This document shows, in pieces, positions 28,575 to 44,372 of a stretch of 64,000 bases of DNA. How positions within the stretch are numbered: the stretch's first letter is position 1; the number at the start of each line of letters is the position of its first letter. Made by a program: the position numbers and the translations under genes. This stretch comes from an uncultured Saprospiraceae bacterium (GTDB lineage Bacteria > Bacteroidota > Bacteroidia > Chitinophagales > Saprospiraceae): contig CALJOK010000013.1 of NCBI GenBank assembly GCA_937981555.1, positions 62,001-126,000 of the forward strand. Reading direction: 5' to 3'. Under the pieces are notes generated by a model. That model did not search any database. It saw only the letters and a program-made list of their open reading frames with translations, and was not told the origin of the DNA.

Positions 28575-29942
28575 ATGCTTGACCTACATCATACCTATTC
28601 TGATACGAACGTATCAGGAAATTCCATATTGAATCAACGTAATACTCACAAAGTTATAACTGACTTACTAACTCATAATGCCCAAATGGCGGTGATAGGG
28701 CTAGGATATGTTGGGTTACCTCTTGCACTTGAGTTTGCTAGAAAATTGGACTTAGTCGGATTTGACATCAAACAGAATCGAGTGAATATGATGAATGCGA
28801 ATGAAGATCCTTCAGGTGAATTACCAAGAAGTGCATTTGACAATCGAAAAATAAATTTCACAGCGAATGTAAATGATTTAGCGGATGCTAAATTTTATAT
28901 CGTTGCCGTTCCAACTCCAGTTGATGCGAATAAAAAACCCAACTTAAATGCTTTGATTAGTGCGACCCAAATGGTGGGAAGTGTTTTGAAAAAAGGAGAT
29001 TATGTGGTGTTTGAATCGACCGTTTATCCAGGGTGTACAGAAGAAGTTTGTCAACCAATTTTGGAAAATAATTCAGGCTTAAAAGTAGGTATTGATTTTA
29101 AAATAGGTTACTCACCAGAGCGAATAAATCCAGGAGATAAGAAACATACTTTGACAAAAATCACAAAAGTAGTTTCAGGTTGCGACCAAGAGGCTTGTGA
29201 TGTAATTGCAGATGTTTATAGTATGATTATTGAAGCGGGAGTTCATCCAGCGACTTCAATCAAAGTAGCTGAGGCTTCTAAAATTATTGAAAATACGCAA
29301 CGAGATATCAATATTGCATTGATGAATGAATTGTCTATGATTTTTGAAAAAGTAGGAATTCGTACGCAAGATGTATTGGATGCAGCTGGAACAAAATGGA
29401 ATTTCCTGAAATTTTATCCTGGATTAGTAGGTGGACATTGCATTGGTGTTGATCCATATTATTTGGTGCATAAGGCGAATGAGTTAGGGGTAAATGCAAG
29501 ATTAATAGCTGCATCAAGAGCAGTCAATGATAATATGCCACAGCATGTGGCGAATAGAATTGTTAAACAATTGCGGGAAGATGGCATTGCAAATATGGAT
29601 GCAAAAGTCTTAGTGCGAGGCATTACTTTTAAAGAAGACGTTCAAGATATACGAAATTCGAAAGCAGCTGAGATGGTTCAACATCTCAAAAGCATGGGCA
29701 TCAATGTAACCGTTGAAGATCCACAGGCTGTTCCAAGTGAGGTAATGCATGAATATGGAATTGAAGCTACTTCAAATCCTACTGGTGAATTCGATTGCAT
29801 CGTTTTGGCCGTTCCACATAAAGAATTTAATGAAGATACGATTGATAAATATCTATCAATGAGCACAGCTCAACCATTCATTTTTGATTTTAGAAATACG
29901 ATCAAAGATGTGCCAAGAGGAGTCGTTTATATGACTCTTTAA
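28575..29942 (+). CDS. UDP-sugar 6-dehydrogenase (TviB/WbpA/WecC type)
   Basis: 455 residues. The N-terminal NAD loop is VIGLGYVGLPLA (about residues 38-50), the linker holds AEASKIIENTQRDINIALMNE, and the catalytic cysteine is in GLVGGHCIGVDPYYL near residue 295. These are the hallmarks of UDP-N-acetyl-glucosamine/mannosamine C6 dehydrogenases that make hexosaminuronic acids. The C-terminal half carries GITFKEDVQDIRNSK. UDP-glucose as substrate cannot be excluded. It sits at the head of a glycosyltransferase/HlyD/TolC-like gene set and likely supplies its uronic-acid substrate. A palindromic repeat separates it from the next gene. Confidence 0.9.
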   Translation: MLDLHHTYSDTNVSGNSILNQRNTHKVITDLLTHNAQMAVIGLGYVGLPLALEFARKLDLVGFDIKQNRVNMMNANEDPSGELPRSAFDNRKINFTANVNDLADAKFYIVAVPTPVDANKKPNLNALISATQMVGSVLKKGDYVVFESTVYPGCTEEVCQPILENNSGLKVGIDFKIGYSPERINPGDKKHTLTKITKVVSGCDQEACDVIADVYSMIIEAGVHPATSIKVAEASKIIENTQRDINIALMNELSMIFEKVGIRTQDVLDAAGTKWNFLKFYPGLVGGHCIGVDPYYLVHKANELGVNARLIAASRAVNDNMPQHVANRIVKQLREDGIANMDAKVLVRGITFKEDVQDIRNSKAAEMVQHLKSMGINVTVEDPQAVPSEVMHEYGIEATSNPTGEFDCIVLAVPHKEFNEDTIDKYLSMSTAQPFIFDFRNTIKDVPRGVVYMTL

Positions 29943-29952
29943 TAATGTTGAA

Positions 29953-30003
29953 GATGAACGGTGAATGATTAATAATGAAAAAATTAATCGTTAACCGTTC
30001 ATC
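29953..30003. repeat. Imperfect palindrome of the AACCGTT word family
   Basis: Bases 29953-29974 pair with 29982-30003 in 20 of 22 positions over a 7-base loop. No T-tract follows, so termination is uncertain. Words such as GAACGGT and TTAACCGTT link it to other intergenic repeats in the window. Confidence 0.8.
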
Positions 30004-30142
30004 ATTTAACCTTTCCTTTCAATTTAGCCATGACAAAATAGCTTTTACAAGAGCTATGAAATACATCAAAAAGAATTAACCAAGTCGAATATTCGACGAA
30101 GTATTTTTAGTGCATTTTTGGAAACAGAAGAGCAGATAGTGT

Positions 30143-31861
30143 ATGAGAAAATCATGGGGTCTTTTACTTTTGGGGATTTGTTTTTTTATAAATGTAAATA
30201 CGATATTTGCTCAGCCTAGAACGTTGAACAAAGCATTGGAAGATAGCATTTATCAAAAAGCAGTTTTGATGTTGAATCTCACGGAGTCAACTGATAATCA
30301 GCTTGTTGCGGACGAAGAGGCCATGCAGCAGGTGACTGATTTATTGGGGTATGGTTTTACAGAAGTAGACAGTTTGGAAGAGATGTTTTTGAAGGAAAAG
30401 ATGAAGGCAATCAAAAAAGATTTTGGCCTTAGTTTTTCCGCAAGATATACGCATAACGGAGAGAGAGCAGACGAAGTTTTGGAGCCAGGAACGAGATGGC
30501 GAGCAGGGGTGGAATGGGACGTTTTGAATAACGGCTATTTTGACAAAAGGAGAAAAAGTAAAACTGTTGAAGACGAATTAGCGCTCTATGAATTGGAGTC
30601 AGATCAGAGAAGAAGAACCAATAATTATCCTTTCATTTATAATAAAATTATCCATACTGGTAATCAACGAAAGATTGAATTATTACGCCAAAGGATTCCT
30701 TACCTAGAATCTTTATTGGAAATTTTGACTGACTTATATTATATCCATGATGTGAAATACACAGAAGTCTTGGATGTGAAAAAGAAGGTCGAAGAAAGTA
30801 AAGCCTTACTGAATACTTACGAAAATTTTAATCATGCATTTACTGCTCGAGTACAACAGGATACATTGAAATTAAATGCTGCGAAATTTCCCATTTTAAA
30901 TATTGATATTGATAAACTGCTTAACGATAGCATTTACGAACAACTCATCAACAAGATGGTGGACGTAAAAAAAGAAGCCATTCAGAATCGAGATGCAAAT
31001 GTCAACCTTCCTAATTTAAAATTATTTGGCAACTATAATTTGCGAACTCGAACTTTTGAGTACGATCGTTCTTACACAAGTTTTGGCGCTTCATTTAGTA
31101 TGCCAATCGATTTTAATAAAAAAGAAAAACGGATGTCTAATTTTTTGGAGGGTGAACTTATCCAGCAAAAAGCAGATAATCAAGTTTATAATAATACACG
31201 TGAATTGTTGAATTTGTATCAGGAGTATAATTACAAAATGAAACAGTACATCGCGTTTTTACATAACAAAGCACGCCTAGAAGAATTGCTTCGAGTGGAA
31301 AGGGTTTTGTTGAATTTTGATCGGCGAGGACATTCGCCACTTTCAGCTTTGAATTATCAAGATATGATTTTGGCAGTAGATATGGAGCTGTTGGACATCC
31401 AGCAAATGATGTATCTCAACTTAGCAAAGATTGCTACAAAAAGTTACCATTCAGATTTTATGTCTTGTTTGGCTATTCGAAATTTTGAGGAAGTTGGAAA
31501 AAAATTAGAAGGAGTAAGGTATGTTTATTTAACAAAATTAGATCTCCAAGAGAACTTCACTTTTATCACAAATTATTTGCAAAAGAACGAATTTAAATCT
31601 GTCATCTTGGAGGAGAAAATTCCAATAGAATATTATAAGAAATTTGGGGATGCTGGAATTTTAGCGTTGACTATTTATGATCCAATTTTTACAACATTAG
31701 AAATAGAAAAAGTACCTATTCATAAATTTGACAATCGGAATCATTTAGAATTTTGGATTTCGTCAGCAAGACGAGCCAAATCAAATAGTGTTTTTTTGTT
31801 TGAAAGTTTTAGTGCTTTGGTTGAATTAGATAAACGAAACAAACAGATTTCAAGGAGATAA
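30143..31861 (+). CDS. TolC-like outer-membrane protein of the exopolysaccharide cluster
   Basis: 572 residues with a signal peptide (LLLLGICFFINVNTIFAQ). Two beta-rich segments with barrel-like alternation (FGLSFSARYTH...RWRAGVEWDVLNNGYF near 95-130 and LKLFGNYNLRTRTF...ASFSMPIDFNKK near 295-330) are each followed by long charged helices. This is the two-strand-plus-coiled-coil repeat of outer-membrane efflux proteins (TolC family), though divergent. The last about 130 residues (from YVYLTKLDLQENF) look like a separate alpha/beta domain not found in TolC. The HlyD-like partner starts 49 bases downstream, so they probably form a channel-adaptor pair. Confidence 0.65.
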   Translation: MRKSWGLLLLGICFFINVNTIFAQPRTLNKALEDSIYQKAVLMLNLTESTDNQLVADEEAMQQVTDLLGYGFTEVDSLEEMFLKEKMKAIKKDFGLSFSARYTHNGERADEVLEPGTRWRAGVEWDVLNNGYFDKRRKSKTVEDELALYELESDQRRRTNNYPFIYNKIIHTGNQRKIELLRQRIPYLESLLEILTDLYYIHDVKYTEVLDVKKKVEESKALLNTYENFNHAFTARVQQDTLKLNAAKFPILNIDIDKLLNDSIYEQLINKMVDVKKEAIQNRDANVNLPNLKLFGNYNLRTRTFEYDRSYTSFGASFSMPIDFNKKEKRMSNFLEGELIQQKADNQVYNNTRELLNLYQEYNYKMKQYIAFLHNKARLEELLRVERVLLNFDRRGHSPLSALNYQDMILAVDMELLDIQQMMYLNLAKIATKSYHSDFMSCLAIRNFEEVGKKLEGVRYVYLTKLDLQENFTFITNYLQKNEFKSVILEEKIPIEYYKKFGDAGILALTIYDPIFTTLEIEKVPIHKFDNRNHLEFWISSARRAKSNSVFLFESFSALVELDKRNKQISRR

Positions 31862-31910
31862 AAATTAATAATTTAATTAGACACATTGACTGTTTTAACC
31901 ATCGGAAATC

Positions 31911-32975
31911 ATGAAAAATTTTAATTTCAAATCTAAAACGAGCGTCATCAAAACGCTCAAAGAGCCGCCGAAGGCCAAGCAAAAGATCAACTGGCAAAAG
32001 TGGTCTTGGATTGGTATTCTTAGTGCGATCGTTTTATTTTCTGGATTTAGAATTTTTAATGGAGTGGCAATTTTGAGAGGAAAAGGACAAGTAGAATTGG
32101 AGAAGCAAGCGCTGACATTTACTAATGATGTAAAAATTTTAGACATCCTTGTGGAAGAAGGGCAAGAAGTAAAAAAAGGAGATACTTTGTTTCTCTATCA
32201 TAATGAATATAATGACATCGGAAATTCGATTCGTCATTCCTACAATGCCAAAAAACCAATTGATTGGATTGAGCGAGAGCGATTGAATTTGAAAAAACAA
32301 ATCGCTTTAAAAAATATTGAAAAGGACAACCTTTCCTCGCGACTAAAATTTAAGAAAGATGAATTTAAACATCAGCAAGATTTGGTTTTACTAGGAGTCA
32401 ATGACATTGAATATACTTTGACTTCTATCGAATCAGATATTATGAGAATCGAGGTGAATCGAAAAATCTTAAAAGAGGAAATTAGTTTTTTGAGGCGGCA
32501 TCTATATCGACTTCGTAAGCAAGAAGAAGAGATGCAAAAATTGGAATCAGATAAGCAAAATTTTGAGACTGTGATGATTAATGAGATTACACCTTACATT
32601 GCTTTGATCGATGGAATTATTGGAAATATAAATTTTAGTCCGAATGAAGTTTGCTATGAGAAGCAAGATGTCATGACGATTCATCAAAGGGAAAACATTA
32701 GTATTCGAGCTTATTTTGATCCAGAATTAATGGGGCATTTAGCGATCAATGATGTGATGCAAATCCAATTTCCAGATGGGATGAAAGGCTTGGGAAGAAT
32801 TAGCAATATTTATATTTCCACCAAAGAATTGCCGGTAGAGTTTCAAAGTAAATATGAACCTATACAACGAAATGTAGTAATTGACATCATGCCAATTACA
32901 GAGGAAGAAGGAGCTAGATGGATTAATTTTTATAAAATGACGGTAGACGTGTCTAAATTAAAATATGAATTATAA
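31911..32975 (+). CDS. HlyD-like membrane fusion (adaptor) protein
   Basis: 354 residues. A cytoplasmic basic N-terminus, one transmembrane helix (residues about 31-50), a lipoyl-like half-motif (ALTFTNDVKILDILVEEGQEVKKGDTLFLYHN), a long coiled-coil hairpin (about 115-220) and a second lipoyl half and beta-barrel (ITPYIALIDGIIGNINFSPN onward). This is the adaptor architecture that bridges an inner-membrane complex to an outer-membrane channel. Positioned between a TolC-like protein and a processive glycosyltransferase, it should serve polysaccharide export rather than drug efflux; that is inference from context. Confidence 0.85.
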   Translation: MKNFNFKSKTSVIKTLKEPPKAKQKINWQKWSWIGILSAIVLFSGFRIFNGVAILRGKGQVELEKQALTFTNDVKILDILVEEGQEVKKGDTLFLYHNEYNDIGNSIRHSYNAKKPIDWIERERLNLKKQIALKNIEKDNLSSRLKFKKDEFKHQQDLVLLGVNDIEYTLTSIESDIMRIEVNRKILKEEISFLRRHLYRLRKQEEEMQKLESDKQNFETVMINEITPYIALIDGIIGNINFSPNEVCYEKQDVMTIHQRENISIRAYFDPELMGHLAINDVMQIQFPDGMKGLGRISNIYISTKELPVEFQSKYEPIQRNVVIDIMPITEEEGARWINFYKMTVDVSKLKYEL

Positions 32976-33167
32976 TGTTTTCACAAAACATTGATTATCA
33001 AGATGTTATAAAAAGTAATATGTTTTTTTTTAACAGTCACGTAAGTTGATTTTTTTGCAAAAAAATCACTTTAATTTATTTTAAATTAACTTTTGAGAAA
33101 ACACTCAACCTCCCAACTAAAGTAACACCTGATTTAGATTTCCCCCCAACTGATATTATACACAAAA

Positions 33168-34571
33168 ATGAATGCATTAAGAATATTACAGCGACCGCTA
33201 AGGTTGGACTTCAAAGAATTTGAAGGACTAAACTTTGCGATTGTTAAAACTGACGCAAATTTCTCAGGTCTTGACCTGACGAAAGCTGATGGAATATTCA
33301 TTGAGAATGAATCTCCAGAAGTAGTTTCGAATATCATCAAAGAGGTGAGAAATTCGGAAGTCACATCTATGTATCTAAAGCCTTTGTTTATCAAATCACT
33401 TTCAATTCCTACCGAAATTGTTCAATTAACAGATGGAAGAGTGGAAGATCTTACGATGAATAAAGCGTTGCAAAAATCGCTTGAAATTAACGAAAGAGTC
33501 AAAGGAATTCAATCAGATATAAAAAACTTAAATTTCTCAGAAAGTCTAATTCTTAAAACCACTCAATACATTTATACTCGACAAAAGCCATTAGTTCCTT
33601 TTCGAAATCGAGCTTCCAAGATTGGATATTCATTTCCTTTTTTGAGTGGATATATTTCTGTAGATGATCATTTACAGATTTTAGATAACCTTTCTCAAGT
33701 GAAGTACGAAGAGTATTTCAAATTCAAAACAGTTGATAAAGTAAATCTATGTCATGAGTGTGAAGGCACTTATATGAATTTTAGAGAGGTCTGTCCGAGT
33801 TGTAATTCTTTAGAACTGAAATCGGAAAATTTGATCCACCATTTCCGATGTGCTTACATTGGACCTGAGTCAGATTTTAAGCAAGATGAAGATATGATTT
33901 GTCCAAAGTGTGATAAAGTTTTACGTCACATTGGAATTGATTATGACAAACCATCAGAGATCAATCAATGCCAAACTTGTAATCACCAATCACAAGATGT
34001 CAACATGAGAGCTTCCTGTATTGACTGCGGACATGATATGGATTTGGAACATATTGCAAATCGAGCTGTCCAAACTTTACAAATTACTGCAGCAGGGGAG
34101 AAATTGGCAATTCGTGGTTTTGGTAAAAAAGTAGCTGCCGCACCTACGTATGAATTTAAGACTACTAAAAATTATTTTGGATGGGGATTATTCAAAATTC
34201 TAGTAGGACAAGAATTGACTAGATTGGAGTTGCGAAGTCATGAAAGTCATTTTGGAGTCATTCAGTTGAACGAAGAGAAATTTGATTTCTTAGATGAGAA
34301 AACTAAAGATGTTTTACAAAAAGAAATACTCAATATAGTATCACAATACTTGCGTCCGGTGGATTTGATTTCGTATAAAAATTTCTCAATGTTTGCCTTT
34401 TTAATGCCAGAAAGTGATCGAAGGTTAGCATCAGAAATGAAAGATATGATAGATTATAATTTGAAAAAATTGATAGGAGATAATATTGAAATGGGTAGTG
34501 GAAGATTGTTAGAAGTAGAAGTATTAACGCTCGACCCCGATGACCATAGTATTTTACAAATGTTAGAATGA
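33168..34571 (+). CDS. TackOD1 zinc-ribbon protein with GGDEF-like C-terminal domain
   Basis: 467 residues. The middle holds a dense cysteine cluster: C195/C198, C209/C212, C228, C245/C248, C268/C271 and C284/C287, with HHFRCAYIGPESDF and HIGIDYDKPSEINQC between them. This is the TackOD1 output-domain signature as I know it. Residues about 340-460 resemble a GGDEF fold, including GVIQLN and LRPVDLISY, but the GG(D/E)EF loop is replaced by KNFSMF, so no cyclase activity is expected. The first 90 residues look like a decayed receiver-type domain. Its stop overlaps the start of the glycosyltransferase (ATGA), implying translational coupling, so it is probably its regulator. Confidence 0.75.
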   Translation: MNALRILQRPLRLDFKEFEGLNFAIVKTDANFSGLDLTKADGIFIENESPEVVSNIIKEVRNSEVTSMYLKPLFIKSLSIPTEIVQLTDGRVEDLTMNKALQKSLEINERVKGIQSDIKNLNFSESLILKTTQYIYTRQKPLVPFRNRASKIGYSFPFLSGYISVDDHLQILDNLSQVKYEEYFKFKTVDKVNLCHECEGTYMNFREVCPSCNSLELKSENLIHHFRCAYIGPESDFKQDEDMICPKCDKVLRHIGIDYDKPSEINQCQTCNHQSQDVNMRASCIDCGHDMDLEHIANRAVQTLQITAAGEKLAIRGFGKKVAAAPTYEFKTTKNYFGWGLFKILVGQELTRLELRSHESHFGVIQLNEEKFDFLDEKTKDVLQKEILNIVSQYLRPVDLISYKNFSMFAFLMPESDRRLASEMKDMIDYNLKKLIGDNIEMGSGRLLEVEVLTLDPDDHSILQMLE

Positions 34572-35887
34572 GCCCAGAATTAAAAAATATTTTACCAGAA
34601 TATCTGGAATATTGGTACACCGTAGGTATTTGGAATTTTGTCCGAGTATTTTGGTATTTCGTTTTGCTAGAGTTAACTCGGTATATTTTTGCAGATTTTG
34701 CTATAGCTGGGTGGTATTATCTTTTTAGAAACGATAGGAAAAAAAAATGGAATAAAGCTCGTAGTGATTTTTGGAATGAAAACCCATTTGTGTCCGTAAT
34801 TATTCCTGGAAAAAATGAAGGGAAACACCTTTTTAAACTCACCAAATCTTTAGCAGAACAGACTTTTCAAAATTTTGAATTAATAATTGTTGATGATGGC
34901 TCAGATGATGAGACTCCTATCATTGGCCGTAATTTGCAAAAACGAGGATTGATTGATTTATTTTTGCGAAATGACATGCGGGGTGGAAAAGCCTCTGCTG
35001 CGAATCTCGCTTTACGGTTTTCAAAAGGAAAATATATTGTTCATTTGGATGCAGATTGTTCGTTTGACCGAGAGGCCATTGAAAATATTTTGATTCCATT
35101 CTTTATGGATGAGAAAATTGGAGCAGTTGGTGGAAATGTAAAGGTGAGAAATGCAGATGAAAGTCTTTGCGCGAGATTACAAGCAATTGAATATTTGAAG
35201 ACCATTTCTGTGGGGCGGATAATCGCTTCTCAACTAGGAATCTATAAAATTATTTCTGGAGCATTTGGAGCATTTCGAGCGGATGTAACTGATGCCATCA
35301 AAGGGTGGGATATTGGCCCAGGACTAGATGGAGATATCACAGTTAAGATTAGAAAATCTGGTTTCAAAACAGTTTTTGAACCATCAGCAGTTTGTTTAAC
35401 AAATGCACCTTCGAAGTTTAAAGTTTTGACGAAGCAAAGATTACGGTGGGACAAATCTATTATTCGATTTCGGGTCAGGAAACATAAAGACGTATACCTT
35501 CCGAGTGAAAATTTTAGTTGGCTTAATTTCTTTGCCCTTTTTGAAAATGTATTTTATAATGTAGTTTTAGATATTCTTTGGTGGGTATATATTATTGATT
35601 TGGTAATGAATTTTAATGATTCATTGCAATATGTAATTCCAATGAATTTTACTATTTATACAGTTGTAGGTTTCATGCAAATGACGAGTACCTACATTTA
35701 TTCTGAACGACGAAAAGAGGAGTTGAAGTTGTGGCCTTACGTTCCTATGATGAGTATTTATACCGGAACCTATTTGAGATTAATTCGATCGGTGGCTTAT
35801 ATTCATGAATTCGTTTGGAAAAAATCATATGATGATCCTTGGAATCCAGTTAAGTCGAGTAGCCAAGCTAAGGCTAATGGATTCTAG
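34568..35887 (+). CDS. Processive family 2 glycosyltransferase (exopolysaccharide synthase)
   Basis: 439 residues. Two N-terminal helices (about 16-36 and 38-54) precede a GT2 catalytic core: VSVIIPGKNEG (74-84), IIVDDGSDDET (106-116), DADCSF (151-156) as DxD, GLDGDIT (242-248) as the acceptor-base region, and QRLRW (280-284), the Q/RxxRW product-binding motif of cellulose/PNAG/hyaluronan-type synthases. Three further C-terminal helices complete a channel-like topology. No PilZ domain is attached. It is translationally coupled to the TackOD1 gene by a 4-base overlap. Product chemistry is undetermined; a uronic-acid or GlcNAc polymer is plausible from the upstream dehydrogenase. Confidence 0.9.
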   Translation: MSPELKNILPEYLEYWYTVGIWNFVRVFWYFVLLELTRYIFADFAIAGWYYLFRNDRKKKWNKARSDFWNENPFVSVIIPGKNEGKHLFKLTKSLAEQTFQNFELIIVDDGSDDETPIIGRNLQKRGLIDLFLRNDMRGGKASAANLALRFSKGKYIVHLDADCSFDREAIENILIPFFMDEKIGAVGGNVKVRNADESLCARLQAIEYLKTISVGRIIASQLGIYKIISGAFGAFRADVTDAIKGWDIGPGLDGDITVKIRKSGFKTVFEPSAVCLTNAPSKFKVLTKQRLRWDKSIIRFRVRKHKDVYLPSENFSWLNFFALFENVFYNVVLDILWWVYIIDLVMNFNDSLQYVIPMNFTIYTVVGFMQMTSTYIYSERRKEELKLWPYVPMMSIYTGTYLRLIRSVAYIHEFVWKKSYDDPWNPVKSSSQAKANGF

Positions 35888-35907: not shown

Positions 35908-35952
35908 AAAAAAAGCGGTGTTAGCCTTTAAAAGGTTAACACCGCTTTTTTA
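35908..35952 (+). terminator. Intrinsic terminator of the exopolysaccharide operon
   Basis: AAAAGCGGTGTTAGCC pairs with GGTTAACACCGCTTTT over a 7-base loop, followed by T-rich sequence. It lies 20 bases past the glycosyltransferase stop. Confidence 0.92.
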
Positions 35953-36241: not shown

Positions 36242-36624
36242 AATAACGAAGTGCTAAAAAGGTACGATAGCACCTTCGTGAGGAAGATAACCAAGATTTT
36301 ATTAAGGCGTGCGTTAGTTATTAAATTGTGTGGAGCTAAAAGAAGCTCTGCACAATATTTAAAAAAAAATAACAATGGACTACTCAAAAAATACAATAGC
36401 ATTTTAGCTAGAGAGAATAATCAAGATTATTATTAAGGCGTGTGTTAGTTATTAAATTGTGCGGAGCTAAAAGAAGCTCTGCGCAATATTTTTAAAACTA
36501 ATGAATGGCCATCCCAAAGATCAATAGCAAATTAGCTATAGAGAAACTCAAGGTATTATTAAGGCGTGTTTTAGTTATTAAATTGTGTGGAGCTAAAAGA
36601 AGCTCTGCACAATATTTTTAAAAC
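36242..36624 (+). repeat. Three tandem ~128-bp repeats, each ending in a conserved hairpin
   Basis: The anchor ATTAAGGCGTG recurs at 36301, 36432 and 36558 (periods 131 and 126). Each copy runs through TTAGTTATTAAATTGTG into a 12-bp hairpin: 36326-36355, 36457-36486 and 36583-36612. The stems vary as U-G, C-G and U-A while keeping pairing, and each is followed by ATATTT. A shorter diverged 5' part has ATAGCA with a nearby complement. No protein-coding frame is conserved between the copies. They could be tandem small RNAs, a palindromic element that duplicated, or nested terminators. Confidence 0.85.
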
Positions 36625-36865
36625 AATGAATTTGATTAAGGAGTAAAAATTTAATTATTTAGAAACGAGGTTTTCCTAAAACTGAATTTTGCTCATTGCC
36701 TTTTTTGTAATTAAATGCCTAGTGCAAAAAATGTATCAGATGATGATATGTGAATTAGACTAAAATATATTTAATCGAGCTATTATTTATTAGCCAGACA
36801 ACCCATCATTTTCCCATAATTAACTATTCAAAAACCGATTTAATTTCATTTATCTCAGAACTGTT

Positions 36866-37075: not shown

Positions 37076-37621
37076 ATGAAAGGAATTGTTTTTACTGAGT
37101 TTTTGGAAATGGTAGAACAAAAGTTTGGTTATGAATTAGTGGACAAGATGCTAACAGAGAATGATTTAGAATCAAAAGGAGCTTACACTTCAATTGGAAC
37201 TTATAATTATTCTGAGATGGTACAACTCCTAGTAGATTTGAGTGCTCGAACAGAAATTGACATTCCTACTTTGTTAAAAGAATATGGAAAATATTTTTTT
37301 GATATATTATATAATTCCTATCCTCAATTTTTTAACACAGTTCCTAACTCGTTTGTTTTTTTGGAATCCATTGAAAATCATATTCATATAGAGGTGAAAA
37401 AAATATATCCAAAGGCTGAGTTACCAACTTTCGAAACGAAAATGATTGATCAAGATACTTTAGAAATGATTTATCATTCCGAACGAAAAATGGCAGATTT
37501 TGCAGAAGGTTTAATTTTAAGAACATTAAACCATTTCCAAGATCCTTGCACGATTAATAGAGAAAATATTAAAGAAGATGGCTCCATTGTGAAATTTTTA
37601 TTAGTCAGAAATAAAAAATAA
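37076..37621 (+). CDS. H-NOX (heme NO/O2-binding) sensor protein
   Basis: 181 residues, the standard length for a stand-alone H-NOX. Key residues are in place: the proximal heme ligand in the IEN-HIHIEVKKIYPKAELP segment (H104, or H102), and the heme-propionate-binding YxSxR motif as YHSER (Y133, S135, R137). N-terminal FTEFLEMVEQKFG is typical. The family binds nitric oxide through heme in the cytoplasm. ATG 37076 is 29 bases after an AGGAGGT, too far for a ribosome binding site. The next gene, a hybrid kinase, starts one base after the stop, so the two form an NO-signalling operon. Confidence 0.93.
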   Translation: MKGIVFTEFLEMVEQKFGYELVDKMLTENDLESKGAYTSIGTYNYSEMVQLLVDLSARTEIDIPTLLKEYGKYFFDILYNSYPQFFNTVPNSFVFLESIENHIHIEVKKIYPKAELPTFETKMIDQDTLEMIYHSERKMADFAEGLILRTLNHFQDPCTINRENIKEDGSIVKFLLVRNKK

Positions 37622-37622
37622 G

Positions 37623-39779
37623 ATGGAGGAATTGGAAATATTAAAGCGTAAACTGAGGAGGGAGAAGGCTGCTAGAAGAGAAGCAGAGTCTATCTTGGAA
37701 AAAAAGGCAATAGAGTTATTTAATGTTAATGAAAAATTACGTAAGATTAATAATGAGTTGCAAGAGAAATTAATTCTTGAGGCGGAAGAGTTGGTGCGAA
37801 GTGAGGAGAAGTATAGAGGAATAATCGAAGGAATGGAGTTAGGTTTGTTGGAAGTCGATTTGAACCATAATATTGTTAGAGCATATGATTGGTTTTGTGA
37901 TATGACAGGCTATCCTGCTGGAGAGTTAGAAGGGAAAAATGCGCTTGAAGTTTTTGTGGCGCAAGAGGATCTCACAATCATGGGTGAACAAGATGAAGTA
38001 AGAGAACAAGGGCAGGCAGGAGTGTATGAAATGAAAATTAAAAAGAAGAATGGCGAATATATATGGGTGTTAATTAGTGGAACTCCACTTTATAATTTTG
38101 AAGGAAAGGTAATTGGTTCGATGGGAATTCATTACGATATTTCTGATCGAAAGAAAATGGAACAAGAACTTCAACTCTCCCAAAAAGCAGCAGAGGCAGC
38201 AAGAGATGCAGAAAAACAATTTTTGGCAAGAATGAGCCATGAAATTCGAACACCGCTTAATGCCATAATCGGAATGGCTCATTTGCTGTCAGCTACTTCT
38301 TCCACTCCTGAGCAAAAGGATCACGTAAAAAGCATCAAAACATCGGGAGATTTATTACTTAAAATAGTTTCGGATATTTTAGATATATCAAAGATAGAAG
38401 CCAACGAAATTAAAATCCATAAAGAGACCTTTAACCTTCGAACATTAGTTATTTCTTTACAAAAAACTTTTCAAGTAAAAACAGATCGAGATCAGGTAAA
38501 CATTTCCTATGAGATTGATAAGGGGATTGAAAATTTATTGATTGGAGATGAATTATTATTGACTCAAATCTTGATGAACTTGATTAGTAATGCGGTTAAG
38601 TTTACAAAAGTTGGGAGCATAAAAATAGGCGTAAAATTACTGGCTGTTGAGGAGGGAAATTACTTTTTAGAATTTGAAGTTTCAGATACAGGAGTAGGTA
38701 TAAAGAAGGAAAAGTTGGATTTGATTTTTGAAAATTTCAAACAAGCCGACGAACAAGTTAGACATGAATTTGGAGGGACTGGTTTGGGGTTAGCTATTTC
38801 CAAAAAATTCGTAGACTTACAAGGTGGAGAAATTTGGGCAGAGAGTGAGTTTGGGAAAGGGACTAAATTTAAATTTAGATTGCATTATATTGATAGTGGT
38901 GAAAAAGATAAAAAGGAAGACGCGAAAGACGAAGAAGCATTACAAATAGTTTTTGAACCATCGGAATTATTCATGCTAATTGTTGAAGACAATTTTATGA
39001 ATCGGAAATATATCACCACTTTACTTCGAAAATGGGGGATTTATTTTCATGTTGCTATCAATGGGAAAGAGGCAGTTGAAATGACTAAAGAGCATCATTA
39101 TGATATGATTTTTATGGATATTTCAATGCCCATTATGGATGGATATGTGGCAACTAGATTGATTCGGAATGAGGAGAATTTAAATAATGAATCACCTATT
39201 GTCGCACTCACCGCTTCTGCTATATTATCCAAAAGAGAACAAGCAATGGGAGTCGGAATGACCGATTATATTGCAAAGCCATTTGCTCCGACTCAACTAT
39301 TGGAGGTGATTAGAAAATATACTACTCGAAAAGAAGAAAGCGTAGCATCGACTTCTGTTGTTAGAGAAGAAGAAAGTATAATTCCAATCTCTACGGATAC
39401 AGAAGAGGAAACTTCAGTTGATGATATTTTAGATGTTTCTTACTTGCAAAAATTTTACGGAGGAGATCATGAACATGCTGCAGATATGTTTGAAATATTT
39501 TTAGAACACACAGTTAAGGATGTACCACAATTACGGAGCTTTATTGAAAAAGAAGATTGGGAAGCAACGAGAAGATTGGCACATAGAATAAAACCTAATT
39601 TTTCAATGGTGGGACTGACTCAATTGGAAAAGAAAATACTGGCCATTGAGAAGATGGCTGATAAGCAAGAAGATGCTAATACTTTGATTAATTTTATGAA
39701 TGAGGTAGAAAGTAAATTAGCAGAAGCAAAACCATTTTTAAATGCCCAATTGGAGAAATATAGATCTCTAAAAAAATAA
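37623..39779 (+). CDS. Hybrid sensor histidine kinase (PAS-HisKA-HATPase-REC-Hpt)
   Basis: 718 residues and no membrane segment. Order: coiled coil 1-60, PAS 61-177 (WFCDMTGYPAGEL, MGIHYDISDRK), HisKA with phospho-acceptor H206 (MSHEIRTPLN), HATPase with N323 and DTGVGI at 355-360 and GGTGLGL, receiver 449-555 with VEDN and phospho-acceptor D499 (MDISMPIMDG) and K542, then Hpt with H644 (AHRIKP). It is cytoplasmic and adjacent to an H-NOX protein, the classic partner that inhibits autophosphorylation when NO-bound. The internal phosphorelay should feed the LytTR regulator 7 bases downstream. Its PAS may sense an extra signal. Confidence 0.93.
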   Translation: MEELEILKRKLRREKAARREAESILEKKAIELFNVNEKLRKINNELQEKLILEAEELVRSEEKYRGIIEGMELGLLEVDLNHNIVRAYDWFCDMTGYPAGELEGKNALEVFVAQEDLTIMGEQDEVREQGQAGVYEMKIKKKNGEYIWVLISGTPLYNFEGKVIGSMGIHYDISDRKKMEQELQLSQKAAEAARDAEKQFLARMSHEIRTPLNAIIGMAHLLSATSSTPEQKDHVKSIKTSGDLLLKIVSDILDISKIEANEIKIHKETFNLRTLVISLQKTFQVKTDRDQVNISYEIDKGIENLLIGDELLLTQILMNLISNAVKFTKVGSIKIGVKLLAVEEGNYFLEFEVSDTGVGIKKEKLDLIFENFKQADEQVRHEFGGTGLGLAISKKFVDLQGGEIWAESEFGKGTKFKFRLHYIDSGEKDKKEDAKDEEALQIVFEPSELFMLIVEDNFMNRKYITTLLRKWGIYFHVAINGKEAVEMTKEHHYDMIFMDISMPIMDGYVATRLIRNEENLNNESPIVALTASAILSKREQAMGVGMTDYIAKPFAPTQLLEVIRKYTTRKEESVASTSVVREEESIIPISTDTEEETSVDDILDVSYLQKFYGGDHEHAADMFEIFLEHTVKDVPQLRSFIEKEDWEATRRLAHRIKPNFSMVGLTQLEKKILAIEKMADKQEDANTLINFMNEVESKLAEAKPFLNAQLEKYRSLKK

Positions 39780-39786
39780 AAATATC

Positions 39787-40479
39787 ATGATTTTAGATTG
39801 TATGATTGTTGATGATGAAATAATGGCGAGAAAATCTCTTGGGCGATTTTGTGAAAAACATGACAACTTAAATGTGGTGCAAATCTGCGAAAACGCCAAT
39901 GATGCACTTTCCTATTTAATTGAGCACTCCGTAGATTTAATTTTTTTAGATATTGAAATGCCCGAACTTTCTGGCCTTGAATTTTTAGAGCAAGTGGTTA
40001 CGTTACCTCAAATTATCTTTACTACTTCAAAGACTGAATATGCTTATGAAGCTTTTGAATATTCGATAACTGATTATTTAAAAAAACCAATTAACATTTC
40101 TCGTTTCCAGCAGGCGGTGGAAAAGGCGCTCGAGGAGCAACAAAAAAATAATGCTTATCGAGCTAATGCAAAAGAAGTTTATTTGAAGGTAGAGGGGAAA
40201 TATGTTAGAGTGGCTTATGATGAGATTCTTTATTTTGAAAATGCAGGAGATTATGTAAAAGTGAAAACTACAGAGAGCAGTTATATTATCTACAGCACAC
40301 TTAAAAATATAGATGCTAAATTAGATAACCCACAGTTTCTAAAAGTCCACCGTAGTTTTATTGTTAACCTTAATAAGATCAAGGATATAGAAGAGGGAAC
40401 GCTAGTTATTGAGAAAAAAGTAATTCCAATTAGTAGAGCAAATAAATCAATCTTAATGAACAAATTAAATATCCTTTGA
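39787..40479 (+). CDS. LytTR-family response regulator
   Basis: 230 residues. The N-terminal receiver has DCMIVDDE (acidic pair D9/D10), phospho-acceptor D55 in IFLDIEMPELSG, and the Thr/Lys pair TTSK and LKKPI. The C-terminal LytTR DNA-binding domain (about 130-230) has YLKVEGKYVRV, ILYFENAGDYVKV and FLKVHRSFIVNL. It is the likely output of the preceding hybrid kinase (7-base gap). Regulon not identifiable, but LytTR regulators in this phylum commonly control surface or gliding functions; no LytTR sites were mapped. It converges with the HTTM gene across a 5-base gap. Confidence 0.93.
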   Translation: MILDCMIVDDEIMARKSLGRFCEKHDNLNVVQICENANDALSYLIEHSVDLIFLDIEMPELSGLEFLEQVVTLPQIIFTTSKTEYAYEAFEYSITDYLKKPINISRFQQAVEKALEEQQKNNAYRANAKEVYLKVEGKYVRVAYDEILYFENAGDYVKVKTTESSYIIYSTLKNIDAKLDNPQFLKVHRSFIVNLNKIKDIEEGTLVIEKKVIPISRANKSILMNKLNIL

Positions 40480-41933: not shown

Positions 41934-44372
41934 TTAGTTAAATATTTGAACCTCTGTTAAGTGGAGAAAATTCTTTCCTGATAATTGAACTCTAACATAT
42001 CGTCCTTGTCGATTGAGGCTAATCTCTGTGAGATCTTGAGCGGAACCGGTGAAATGAAAATCACTAACTCCAGATTGATTTATAGTCTCGTTTATATCTG
42101 TACTATTGAAAGGTACATCTGAAACGAATACATGGAAATCATTCAATCGACTTTGACAGCAATTTGCCCTATTAAAAACATTTATAGCTGAAAGATTATA
42201 GATTTGTTCTAAATCAACTTCCCACCATGCATTTTGATTTTTCTTAGTATGATTGAAATTCTGTCCGCCAATAATTCCGTCTATTGCTTCTGAAGCAAAA
42301 AACTGTGAATTACTATATGAGGATGATTGTGTAGCGGTTTTCCCTTGAGCAATATTTTGAGTATTTGGAGGTGGAGATGATGCATTTACAATCGGATAAG
42401 CTGTAACATTAATTGCAGAAGCAGGATGTACATTTATTTGAAAGATTGCGTCATTGAAATCATTGTCACCTGTTCCTACTACTTGATCATCAAAACAAAC
42501 TACTAATTCTTCACATTCAGGTTCGTACAAGATCACACTTTGTCTTCCATTTGCATTGAATGCTGGGTCAGAATAATGAGCAGCTATGCCTTCTGAAATT
42601 GTCCCACTTCCTTCATTCCATCCATCTGAATTTAAGAAAAATCCAATTACGGTATTGGCTTTGAAATTACCATAAAGTGAGACTGTACTTCCTTCGAATA
42701 ATCCGCCACCTGAGCCTTGTGCTGAAGCATTAGGGAACGCAATTAATTTGATAATATCATCAACACTAGTTGGTGGATTATCTGCATTATAATAATAGTA
42801 TCCTAAAACATTTTTATAACCTGCTCCTTCATCAACAAAACTGATAGAGACCTCTGCATCTTCTTCGATTAAGATATTATAAGGGACAGAATTATCAAAA
42901 TATTCAGGATGAGCAGTCATTGCATTTTGCCCATCAGGAAGAGATAGAGAAAGGATGTTAGAAAGTAAAGCATCACATATTTCTATTTGCTCTACATTAT
43001 CTGGGACACCTTGATTATTGAAACTACTGATTGGTAAATAATCACCTGGTTGCGGTCGTCTTAATATTTTAGTACCTCCTAATCCTTTGGCGATTAGAAT
43101 CCATTCTGTAGATCCATCTACTTCAATAAAGTTGGCTGACGCTGCATCTGGTTCATTCATATCCCAAGTGAAAACTAACTCCGGATCAATTCCTGGAATT
43201 TCTGGTTTGGTAAAAACTGCTAATCCATCAGCACCGTTGGCAGCATAAATGAATTGATCATCAGAAGTAACACCATTAGTATTTCCAGTAGTTAACATGT
43301 TATTATTTGATGTCCAAGTTTCAGCACCTGTATGAATATTGTACGAAGCTAAACCATGTTTTCCTTTAGTGATGTAAACATTGTCAGGATCATTATTGAC
43401 GAAGTGAATAGTACTTTTTCCTCTACTATCAGTATCTACATTTTGATGTAAAATTTCTCCAACATTATATTCATTTGAAAAGTGAAAACTTCCAATATCT
43501 TCTACTCGAAGTGAACTTGATTCTCCAGTTTGCAAACTGACTACTTTGGTTGCATTGTCAGGTGTTCCATTGACATCGATGTATTTTCCATTTTCAAATT
43601 CTACACTTCCAAGCACCTCTAAAGTTTCAGCATTTATACAGAAAGCACCTCCATGTGTTTTTCCACTTGAAACATATAAATAGTCACCTGAATAAGTAAC
43701 TGAATTAGCGGAAGAAGATATTCCTCCATCAATGAAATTAGAAAGATTTACGATTTGGAATCCAGAGTAAGTTGTTCCTCCTGCCATAGTTACTTCGCCG
43801 AGTACCGCACCTTTTTTACTATCAGAAAGACTTAACCAAATTTTTACATCATTTGAACCAGGTAATTTTCCAACTTCAATTGCATTAATATCGGCGCTAC
43901 TTAAATAACCTCTAAAAGTAACAATTGGATTATTTGGATCAGATAAGTCTACTACCTCAAGCGCTCCTAAATGATCGACACCTCGTTTATGATAACTGAT
44001 ATATGCTTTGTCATCTAAAAAAGCTATATGAGTTGCACTCAATGTTACTCCATCCAAAACATAAGGCTCTATTTCACCTACATGCAACCAGTAATAATCG
44101 GAATTAACTATACCATCTCTAGTATCCACTTGACCAGAAGTAAGGCTATCACTATCCGTATTATTTTTAATAATGATGGTCTCGTTTACTATTGTAATTC
44201 GATCGCTAAAATTAGAGTTAGAACTTAAAGATTGGAAATAATTTTCAGGAACAGGACTCGTGGAGCTAGAAGTATTTTCTGAGTCTAGGGGAGTAAGGTT
44301 ATCTTTTTTACAGCTTTGTGTGAGAGCCAAAGCTAAAGCAAAGGCGAAGTAAATCACTACTCGATTTTTCAT
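41934..44372 (-). CDS. Large lipoprotein: beta-propeller-like, DUF4114-like and discoidin-like domains
   Basis: 812 residues with a signal peptide and lipobox TQSC (Cys at 21). Residues about 90-430 contain repeated blades such as HIAFLDDKAYISYHKRG and GALEVVDLSDPNNP, matching LVIVD-type propeller repeats. Residues about 500-660 have DEGAGYKNVLGYYYYN and the acidic GTGDNDFNDAIF motif, a DUF4114-like calcium-type signature. The last about 150 residues start IAQGKTATQSSSYSNS with WWEVDL, RLNDFHVF and RYVRVQL, which is an F5/8 type C (discoidin/fucolectin) carbohydrate-binding domain. It is likely a surface lectin-like adhesin. No sorting signal of type IX secretion is evident. It has its own terminator. 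Confidence 0.75.
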   Translation of the reverse strand: MKNRVVIYFAFALALALTQSCKKDNLTPLDSENTSSSTSPVPENYFQSLSSNSNFSDRITIVNETIIIKNNTDSDSLTSGQVDTRDGIVNSDYYWLHVGEIEPYVLDGVTLSATHIAFLDDKAYISYHKRGVDHLGALEVVDLSDPNNPIVTFRGYLSSADINAIEVGKLPGSNDVKIWLSLSDSKKGAVLGEVTMAGGTTYSGFQIVNLSNFIDGGISSSANSVTYSGDYLYVSSGKTHGGAFCINAETLEVLGSVEFENGKYIDVNGTPDNATKVVSLQTGESSSLRVEDIGSFHFSNEYNVGEILHQNVDTDSRGKSTIHFVNNDPDNVYITKGKHGLASYNIHTGAETWTSNNNMLTTGNTNGVTSDDQFIYAANGADGLAVFTKPEIPGIDPELVFTWDMNEPDAASANFIEVDGSTEWILIAKGLGGTKILRRPQPGDYLPISSFNNQGVPDNVEQIEICDALLSNILSLSLPDGQNAMTAHPEYFDNSVPYNILIEEDAEVSISFVDEGAGYKNVLGYYYYNADNPPTSVDDIIKLIAFPNASAQGSGGGLFEGSTVSLYGNFKANTVIGFFLNSDGWNEGSGTISEGIAAHYSDPAFNANGRQSVILYEPECEELVVCFDDQVVGTGDNDFNDAIFQINVHPASAINVTAYPIVNASSPPPNTQNIAQGKTATQSSSYSNSQFFASEAIDGIIGGQNFNHTKKNQNAWWEVDLEQIYNLSAINVFNRANCCQSRLNDFHVFVSDVPFNSTDINETINQSGVSDFHFTGSAQDLTEISLNRQGRYVRVQLSGKNFLHLTEVQIFN

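Follow-up and report, generated by a model that had tools for sequence, protein, structure and literature searches.

In Shewanella, the mxdABCD genes encode MxdA, a protein with a degenerated GGDEF domain (PMC3409153), the type-2 glycosyltransferase (GT2) MxdB and the efflux-like MxdC, and mutants are devoid of three-dimensional biofilm (PMC3691769). Binding of cyclic di-GMP (c-di-GMP) by MxdA was reported (PMC7666153, PMC11395469), and the protein has been called a c-di-GMP-binding effector which contacts the receiver protein CheY3 (PMC7666153). Here, we analyse a comparable locus of an uncultured Saprospiraceae bacterium (phylum Bacteroidota), located at positions 28,575 to 35,887 of a 64,000-nucleotide stretch of DNA (contig CALJOK010000013.1, positions 62,001 to 126,000; hereafter, the window is this whole stretch). 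Its five genes encode a sugar dehydrogenase, a TolC-like channel, a HlyD-like adaptor, a TackOD1 protein and a membrane GT2. The function of TackOD1 has been termed obscure (PMC5847659).

Elements of this plan are found in other exopolysaccharide pathways as well. Alginate is one of these, with export by AlgE/AlgK and not by TolC. Its Alg44 protein has a periplasmic membrane-fusion (HlyD-type) domain that works with a GT2 (PMC8461298); Alg44, however, is a single PilZ-membrane-fusion protein. Catalytically dead GGDEF modules regulate exopolysaccharide secretion in the case of PelD and of BcsE, the latter being a degenerate receiver-GGDEF tandem (PMC7439463, PMC8461298), and both proteins read c-di-GMP via RxxD, their c-di-GMP I-site (PMC8461298, PMC7439463). 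In our locus, in contrast, the dead GGDEF domain comes after a TackOD1 zinc ribbon, and c-di-GMP made by the cells themselves is unlikely. A path composed of a GT2, a HlyD-like adaptor and a TolC channel, as found here, was proposed for cyanobacterial cellulose (XcsAB-TolC; PMC12430437). However, XcsA variants have PilZ or PCR domains, the T. vulcanus genes are scattered, and the accessible part of this source names no TackOD1 protein (PMC12430437). BgsB, of mixed-linkage glucan, was considered as a further precedent but dropped, since it is not named in the source consulted.

As in Mxd, a degenerate-GGDEF gene is directly followed by a membrane GT2 gene, both here and in Plesiomonas, Photobacterium and Aeromonas, and an efflux- or HlyD-like partner belongs to the operon in 28/30 of the further Bacteroidota loci described below. 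In Plesiomonas and Photobacterium the order of TackOD1-degenerate GGDEF, GT2 and HlyD matches the published description of mxdABC (PMC3691769, PMC3409153), and therefore the plan is not undescribed, as the sequence-only reading had held it to be. This comparison is one of gene order and published description, not of MxdA sequence; no Shewanella MxdA was among the matches listed in our TackOD1 searches (plasmids, one viral scan and one genome scan, with no Shewanella chromosome covered). A literature search, with most subscription papers outside its reach, returned no title or abstract describing this system in Bacteroidota. The window differs from Mxd in having TolC inside the operon and HlyD ahead of the regulator. 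New in comparison to Mxd are also the lack of GGDEF and PilZ matches in the tested carriers, the H-NOX/kinase/LytTR genes linked to the operon in four genomes, and a GH18-like relic on TolC. The module is real and conserved, and most likely it is a synthase-dependent system for exopolysaccharide that belongs to the Mxd kind and differs in its control layer. The fuller reading, in which such a system would make an amino-sugar polymer, export it by HlyD and TolC, and be switched by the TackOD1-degenerate GGDEF protein under control other than by c-di-GMP, we regard as probable.

The five genes and their conservation

All five open reading frames (ORFs), and the families to which the sequence-only reading had assigned them, were confirmed by coordinates and profile scans, each on the forward strand and with the expected domains. 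The features of the synthase unit are:

28575..29942, + strand, uridine diphosphate (UDP)-sugar 6-dehydrogenase, most like UDP-N-acetylhexosamine (HexNAc) dehydrogenases (TIGR03026, TviB-like, PDB matches); predicted accessory for precursor supply
30143..31861, + strand, TolC-like outer-membrane channel (OEP, PF02321), kept alongside HlyD in relatives
31490..31858, + strand, C-terminal tail of the TolC-like protein, by hhalign a shortened relic of a GH18-like domain
31911..32975, + strand, HlyD-like periplasmic adaptor (weak profile matches; conserved in the loci)
33168..34571, + strand, TackOD1 regulator (PF18551; GGDEF homology)
33168-33521, + strand, N-terminal conserved domain of the TackOD1 protein, about 118 residues, no assigned fold
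33546-34079, + strand, TackOD1 zinc-ribbon domain (PF18551)
34140-34568, + strand, degenerate GGDEF domain of the TackOD1 protein, by profile homology
34568..35887, + strand, membrane GT2 synthase, its start overlapping the TackOD1 stop by ATGA
35909-35951, + strand, terminator-like hairpin closing the synthase unit (20 pairs and a T-rich tail)

Along the five genes the intergenic gaps are 200, 49 and 192 nt, followed by the ATGA overlap between TackOD1 and GT2, which had been noted previously and proved real. Since the terminator-like hairpin follows the GT2 gene, the synthase unit probably ends at it. TackOD1 scored 166.9 bits against a cut-off of 32 and the GT2 profile 87.9 bits; the HlyD-like protein gave weak matches, both under the cut-off (Biotin_lipoyl_2, E 8.7e-5; RND_mfp, E 1.4e-9). 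The DxD and QxxRW residues of the synthase are present, as had been claimed, and are invariant across 16 aligned GT2s. Unlike in the Bcs and Xcs systems, no PilZ domain was found by Pfam on the GT2 of the window.

Conservation was assessed in 199 genomes of the window's family and 395 genomes of its phylum, two of which were common to both samples. TackOD1 (PF18551) was over the cut-off in 19/199 and 12/395 genomes, respectively, which gives 29 carriers. Besides the window, 30 further Bacteroidota loci were read (L-numbers denote loci and G-numbers genomes, G000 being the window's own); L062 and L072 share a genome, and L002 is closely related to the window. The GT2 gene adjoins TackOD1 in all 30 of them, and, with the window included, the two genes are separated by no more than 28 nt in 31/31 loci. 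HlyD was found in 28 loci (the exceptions are L032 and L033), and TolC in 24 by BLAST, in 25 by adding L071 on the basis of clustering, and in 25/27 after the short contigs L041-L043 were dropped. The arrangement is not always the same, as TolC and HlyD lie on the opposite strand in L038 and two genes intervene between HlyD and TackOD1 in L063-L065. A point missed by the sequence-only reading is that the dehydrogenase stands beside the module in only 9/31 loci including the window, some contigs being too short to tell, and in the closest relative it is split into two ORFs (L002, 5373-6740), which is either a real break or an assembly error. Thus, the TolC-like, HlyD, TackOD1 and GT2 families do co-occur in Bacteroidota, and the lack of a conserved neighbourhood in relatives, named by the sequence-only reading as a ground for abandoning its proposal, was not observed. 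Its view of a synthase-type system, in which export follows a HlyD/TolC layout and the regulator is coupled to GT2, is supported as well.

The window GT2, used as a query at 1e-60, found 21 of the 199 family genomes, i.e., the 19 TackOD1 carriers as well as G189 and G091. Both genes are therefore present in 19 genomes, TackOD1 only in none, GT2 only in two and neither in 178 (Fisher p about 1e-24, ancestry not corrected for). The GT2 of G189, without TackOD1, is cut at a contig end. In G091 (contig C65, 30515-31825) the GT2 has two internal stops, there is no TackOD1 in the remaining 1.1 kb of the contig, and the gene is probably what remains of a decayed system.

Outside Bacteroidota, one plasmid search gave TackOD1 matches in 21 plasmid records; 16 loci of 15 organisms (12 bacterial and four archaeal) were opened from plasmid searches. 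GT2 follows TackOD1 in 11 of the 12 bacterial loci, being cut by the record end in one Aeromonas record, and the sole exception is Microvirga, where no glycosyltransferase neighbour is annotated. The next gene is annotated as HlyD-family in Plesiomonas, Rhodobacteraceae M382, Alisedimentitalea, Phyllobacterium and Aminobacter; Pfam identifies it as HlyD-like in Photobacterium and Palleronia and only weakly so in Methylocystis, and in Roseibium the assignment is by eye. In Aeromonas caviae the whole module, in the order TackOD1-GT2-TolC-HlyD, resides on a 29-kb mobilizable plasmid (L084, 4548-10370), and in Phyllobacterium an annotated glycine-betaine ATP-binding cassette (ABC) ATPase lies upstream. 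Three of the four haloarchaeal loci have no annotated glycosyltransferase nearby (their gene tables are incomplete), and on a Halorussus plasmid a TackOD1-like gene, DUF2334 and a glycosyltransferase stand in a row (L081, 6950-9911). On a putatively viral 97.7-kb contig from IMG/VR (L117, 4959-10993), TackOD1 and GT2 are accompanied by a protein that looks HlyD-like by eye but has no Pfam match, a 443-residue protein without assigned family and a nucleotide-sugar epimerase; 3/6 flanking proteins scanned match PHROGs.

The regulator and cyclic di-GMP

The alignment of the regulator consisted of 39 rows (30 from Bacteroidota, three from Gammaproteobacteria and six from Alphaproteobacteria), in which eleven cysteines are invariant. 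According to profile comparisons, the C-terminal 143 residues of the TackOD1 protein are a degenerate GGDEF domain. When compared by hhalign to 15 genuine GGDEF domains, the Bacteroidota rows gave 92.7% and the Proteobacteria rows 91.4%, whereas the best of 30 column shuffles reached only 0.8% and 5.8%, respectively. The value was 73.7% without the receiver-type Bacteroidota rows (not shuffled), and 96.2% for all 39 rows against 16 references, one of which is devoid of the motif. The Pfam GGDEF model matched 6/39 rows at E 0.01 or better and was over its cut-off in the three gammaproteobacterial proteins, and the 39-row profile retrieved GGDEF structures from PDB (best 6zxm, E 4.7e-10). These three approaches uphold the GGDEF-like part of the regulator proposed earlier. 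The contrast drawn at the same time with systems regulated by degenerate GGDEF proteins does not hold, since the TackOD1 protein itself ends in such a domain, like PelD and BcsE. In the window, NFSMF replaces the GGDEF signature and GG(D/E)EF occurs in 0/39 rows, so that an active cyclase is not indicated.

The receiver family PF00072 matches 8/39 TackOD1 rows, and receiver-TackOD1 fusions are found in two Alphaproteobacteria. In six loci where TackOD1 is preceded by a receiver, a small gene of its own codes for a relative of the N-terminal domain. The N-terminal domain of the window itself resembles a degenerate receiver by eye, but this assignment was rejected, as hhalign gave 1.8 and 0.4 versus 1.2 and 1.7 for the shuffles. 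An AlphaFold model of the TackOD1 protein (three rows) had a mean predicted local distance difference test score of 39.8 and was not used.

The machinery of c-di-GMP was sought with Pfam in 26 of the 29 carriers, whose genomes are 91-100% complete (G039, G159 and G161, 71-81% complete, were left out). GGDEF (PF00990) was over the cut-off in 0/26 carriers versus 1/10 non-carriers, and PilZ in 0/26 carriers; the sole weak GGDEF match among the carriers was the C-terminus of the TackOD1 protein itself, in G396. In the phylum sample, GGDEF was over the cut-off in 0/12 TackOD1 carriers and in 202/383 other genomes, a difference confounded by taxonomy. In the control set of 14 named genomes, including E. 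coli, B. subtilis and Caulobacter, GGDEF was detected in eight and PilZ in five. As neither domain was matched in the 26 tested carriers, control by self-made c-di-GMP seems unlikely.

According to the classical Mxd logic, the degenerate GGDEF domain would nevertheless be a c-di-GMP receptor acting via its RxxD I-site, and c-di-GMP would be made or received by a route that is invisible to Pfam. The window does have such a motif, RPVD at residues 396-399, five residues ahead of the degenerate signature, and RxxD is intact in 12/39 rows (9/30 from Bacteroidota, 3/3 from Gammaproteobacteria and 0/6 from Alphaproteobacteria). Moreover, c-di-GMP binding has been reported for MxdA (PMC7666153, PMC11395469), and in PelD and BcsE it takes place through RxxD (PMC8461298, PMC7439463). 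On the other hand, the motif is missing from 21/30 Bacteroidota rows, and the genome counts given above do not favour this explanation, which we consider unlikely.

Polymer and export path

The dehydrogenase scored 393 bits with TIGR03026, and its best named relative is TviB with 420 bits, under the cut-off of 592. Among the PDB matches, those labelled ManNAcA dehydrogenase, Cap5O and GalNAcA dehydrogenase reached 199.6, 180.4 and 155.5 bits versus 100.6 bits for UDP-glucose dehydrogenase; a plain UDP-glucose dehydrogenase was rejected because the HexNAc dehydrogenases score better. A GlmS-like gene (SIS and glutamine amidotransferase domains) stands in line with the operon in L031 and L034. 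As for the synthase, profile and PDB matches place it close to PgaC/IcaA and to chondroitin and hyaluronan synthases, with a PgaC/IcaA score of 162 bits that lies below the cut-off of that model, 422.3, and so does not assign it to the poly-N-acetylglucosamine (Pga/Ica) class. Our best guess, towards which the balance leans modestly, would be a polymer of the hexosamine type.

The TolC proteins of relatives have a tail of about 240 residues apparently related to glycoside hydrolase family 18 (GH18, the chitinase family). By hhalign, the short, mid and long tails are connected to each other (short-mid 96.1, mid-long 98.2, short-long 83.8, with 30 column shuffles each giving at most 0.6), and by this comparison the tail of the window is a shortened relic of a GH18-like domain. 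PF00704 matched 2/6 long or mid tails (E 1.8e-6 and 5.1e-6, both just under the cut-off). In the PDB search with the tail, chitinase-type GH18 matches were weak (E 0.08-0.5) and ranked below GH97 (4.1e-5), OT3 (4.5e-4) and PCNA (0.043).

We propose that the GT2 would polymerise an amino-sugar polymer of HexNAc, in some genomes with HexNAc-uronate supplied by the dehydrogenase, and would move it through its own membrane channel, while the HlyD-like adaptor would connect the synthase to the TolC-like outer-membrane channel. Membrane GT2s are generally known to serve many pathways, and the product could instead be a lipid-linked or wall glycan or a glycolipid and not a long secreted polymer; in L032 and L033, TackOD1-GT2 has neither HlyD nor TolC close by, and in an archaeon the TackOD1-like gene stands near a glycosyltransferase, which would agree with this. 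However, the presence of the adaptor in 28/30 and of the channel in 25/27 loci, the hydrolase-like tail on TolC and the resemblance of the GT2 to PgaC and hyaluronan synthases make such a product quite improbable. In L032 and L033 the pair sits beside a secreted-looking protein of more than 3000 residues.

In type I secretion, an ABC transporter would be expected beside HlyD and TolC. No ABC ATPase was found among 383 picked neighbour ORFs of 27 loci in a coarse motif screen, which is no proof: an apparent UvrA gene of L030 escaped it, and the ORF pick for L026 kept others than the genes of the module. None of 12 neighbour ORFs longer than 900 residues was similar to a resistance-nodulation-division (RND) pump, as judged by eye from the first 60 residues. 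A consistent pairing of the TolC-like and HlyD genes with an ABC transporter, which had been put forward as an outcome that would overturn the proposal, was thus not seen in this rough screen. That a TolC/HlyD secretion or efflux system lies only by chance beside a GT2 and a signalling protein, as the weak matches of the HlyD-like protein to RND and type I adaptor models might suggest, is very improbable in view of these screens and of the recurrence of the TackOD1-GT2-HlyD order in other phyla.

Linked sensory genes and control of the synthase

Beyond the synthase unit, the window holds the following features, on which the sequence-only reading had not remarked:

37076..37621, + strand, H-NOX (heme NO-binding) sensor (PF07700); homologues beside the operon in G005, G082 and G198
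37623..39779, + strand, hybrid histidine kinase (PAS-HisKA-HATPase-REC-Hpt, by domains); kinases of 39-44% identity adjoin the operon in G082 and G198
39787..40479, + strand, LytTR response regulator (domain scan; best-match linkage)
41934..44372, - strand, propeller-like lipoprotein (lipobox by eye) with DUF4114 and an F5/8-type C domain (domain scan)

The gap between GT2 and H-NOX contains three direct repeats of about 104 bp with hairpins (36267-36627). Relatives of the propeller lipoprotein lie between HlyD and the dehydrogenase in L063-L065 (42-46% identical) and next to GT2 in L066, L069 and L071 (24-28%); it is a probable surface accessory, and the least certain part.

The H-NOX set is linked to the operon in four genomes, namely the window's own, G005, G082 and G198. 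In G198 and G082, the set, with a 55-57% identical H-NOX, lies directly upstream of the GlmS-like gene, dehydrogenase, TolC, HlyD, TackOD1 and GT2, and in G005 the H-NOX gene (45%) begins 11 nt past GT2, with kinase, receiver and LytTR genes after it. Three genomes from another family have the same type of LytTR upstream, but together with a different kinase. The operon-linked LytTR is the genome-wide best match to that of the window in 5/6 other genomes, with the exception of G005. Among 12 H-NOX genes present in 11 carriers, four are no more than 10 kb away from TackOD1; a rough binomial that takes no account of ancestry gives about 8e-8. The window's genome has a second H-NOX gene apart from the operon (contig C55, 484-966). 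We know of no earlier description of H-NOX linked by gene position to a synthase operon. H-NOX proteins with histidine kinases are involved in biofilm control via c-di-GMP enzymes or response regulators, and the accessible part of the source names no LytTR regulator for the known cases (PMC8738867).

The TackOD1-degenerate GGDEF protein, translationally coupled to the GT2, would contact the synthase at the cytoplasmic face and switch it. This switch is probably not read by self-made c-di-GMP, because the carriers are devoid of recognisable GGDEF and PilZ. The signal may arrive by phosphorelay, as suggested by some relatives whose TackOD1 carries a fused receiver domain. The H-NOX/kinase/LytTR genes linked to the operon in the window and in three relatives may in addition report on nitric oxide or on the redox state, acting at least at the level of transcription. 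Sensing of another cyclic dinucleotide, e.g., c-di-AMP, is highly unlikely: a match to its cyclase DAC was found in 16/26 carriers but was absent from G000 and nine other carriers. We suggest tentatively, and with somewhat less than even confidence, that a dead-GGDEF/TackOD1 regulator has been kept in cells without c-di-GMP enzymes and rewired to phosphorelay and, in some genomes, to nitric oxide sensing by H-NOX/kinase/LytTR, which would constitute a sensor-to-matrix switch without a second messenger.

Several observations speak against parts of this picture. The RxxD motif intact in the window is compatible with a cyclic-dinucleotide receptor, and the absence of GGDEF relies on Pfam and on genomes that are 91-100% complete. 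As for export, no HlyD or TolC was present in the stretch examined around TackOD1-GT2 in L032 and L033, which belong to one genus, in Methylocystis the opposite strand carries a major facilitator superfamily/HlyD/outer-membrane efflux set right beside the module, and the GH18 matches of the TolC tails are below the cut-off, with none in 4/6 tails. Regarding the sensory genes, H-NOX was not matched in 15/26 carriers and was found in 3/10 non-carriers, thus it is not a general part of the module. In addition, in L002, the closest relative (93% identity), the H-NOX/kinase/LytTR genes are absent from the interval that separates GT2 from the next shared gene, in G066 the set is on a different contig, and in G168 a LytTR gene of 78% identity occurs with no match to TackOD1 or GT2 in the genome.

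If the proposed rewiring is true, the receiver-TackOD1 fusions would represent a covalent counterpart of the contact between CheY3 and MxdA that was reported for Shewanella. TackOD1 would gain a concrete role, that of partnering a membrane GT2, in Bacteroidota as well as Proteobacteria and possibly also in an archaeon. Regulation of a synthase by a dead GGDEF module, in cells where c-di-GMP enzymes appear to be absent, becomes a testable idea, and the genome context ties H-NOX to matrix synthesis.

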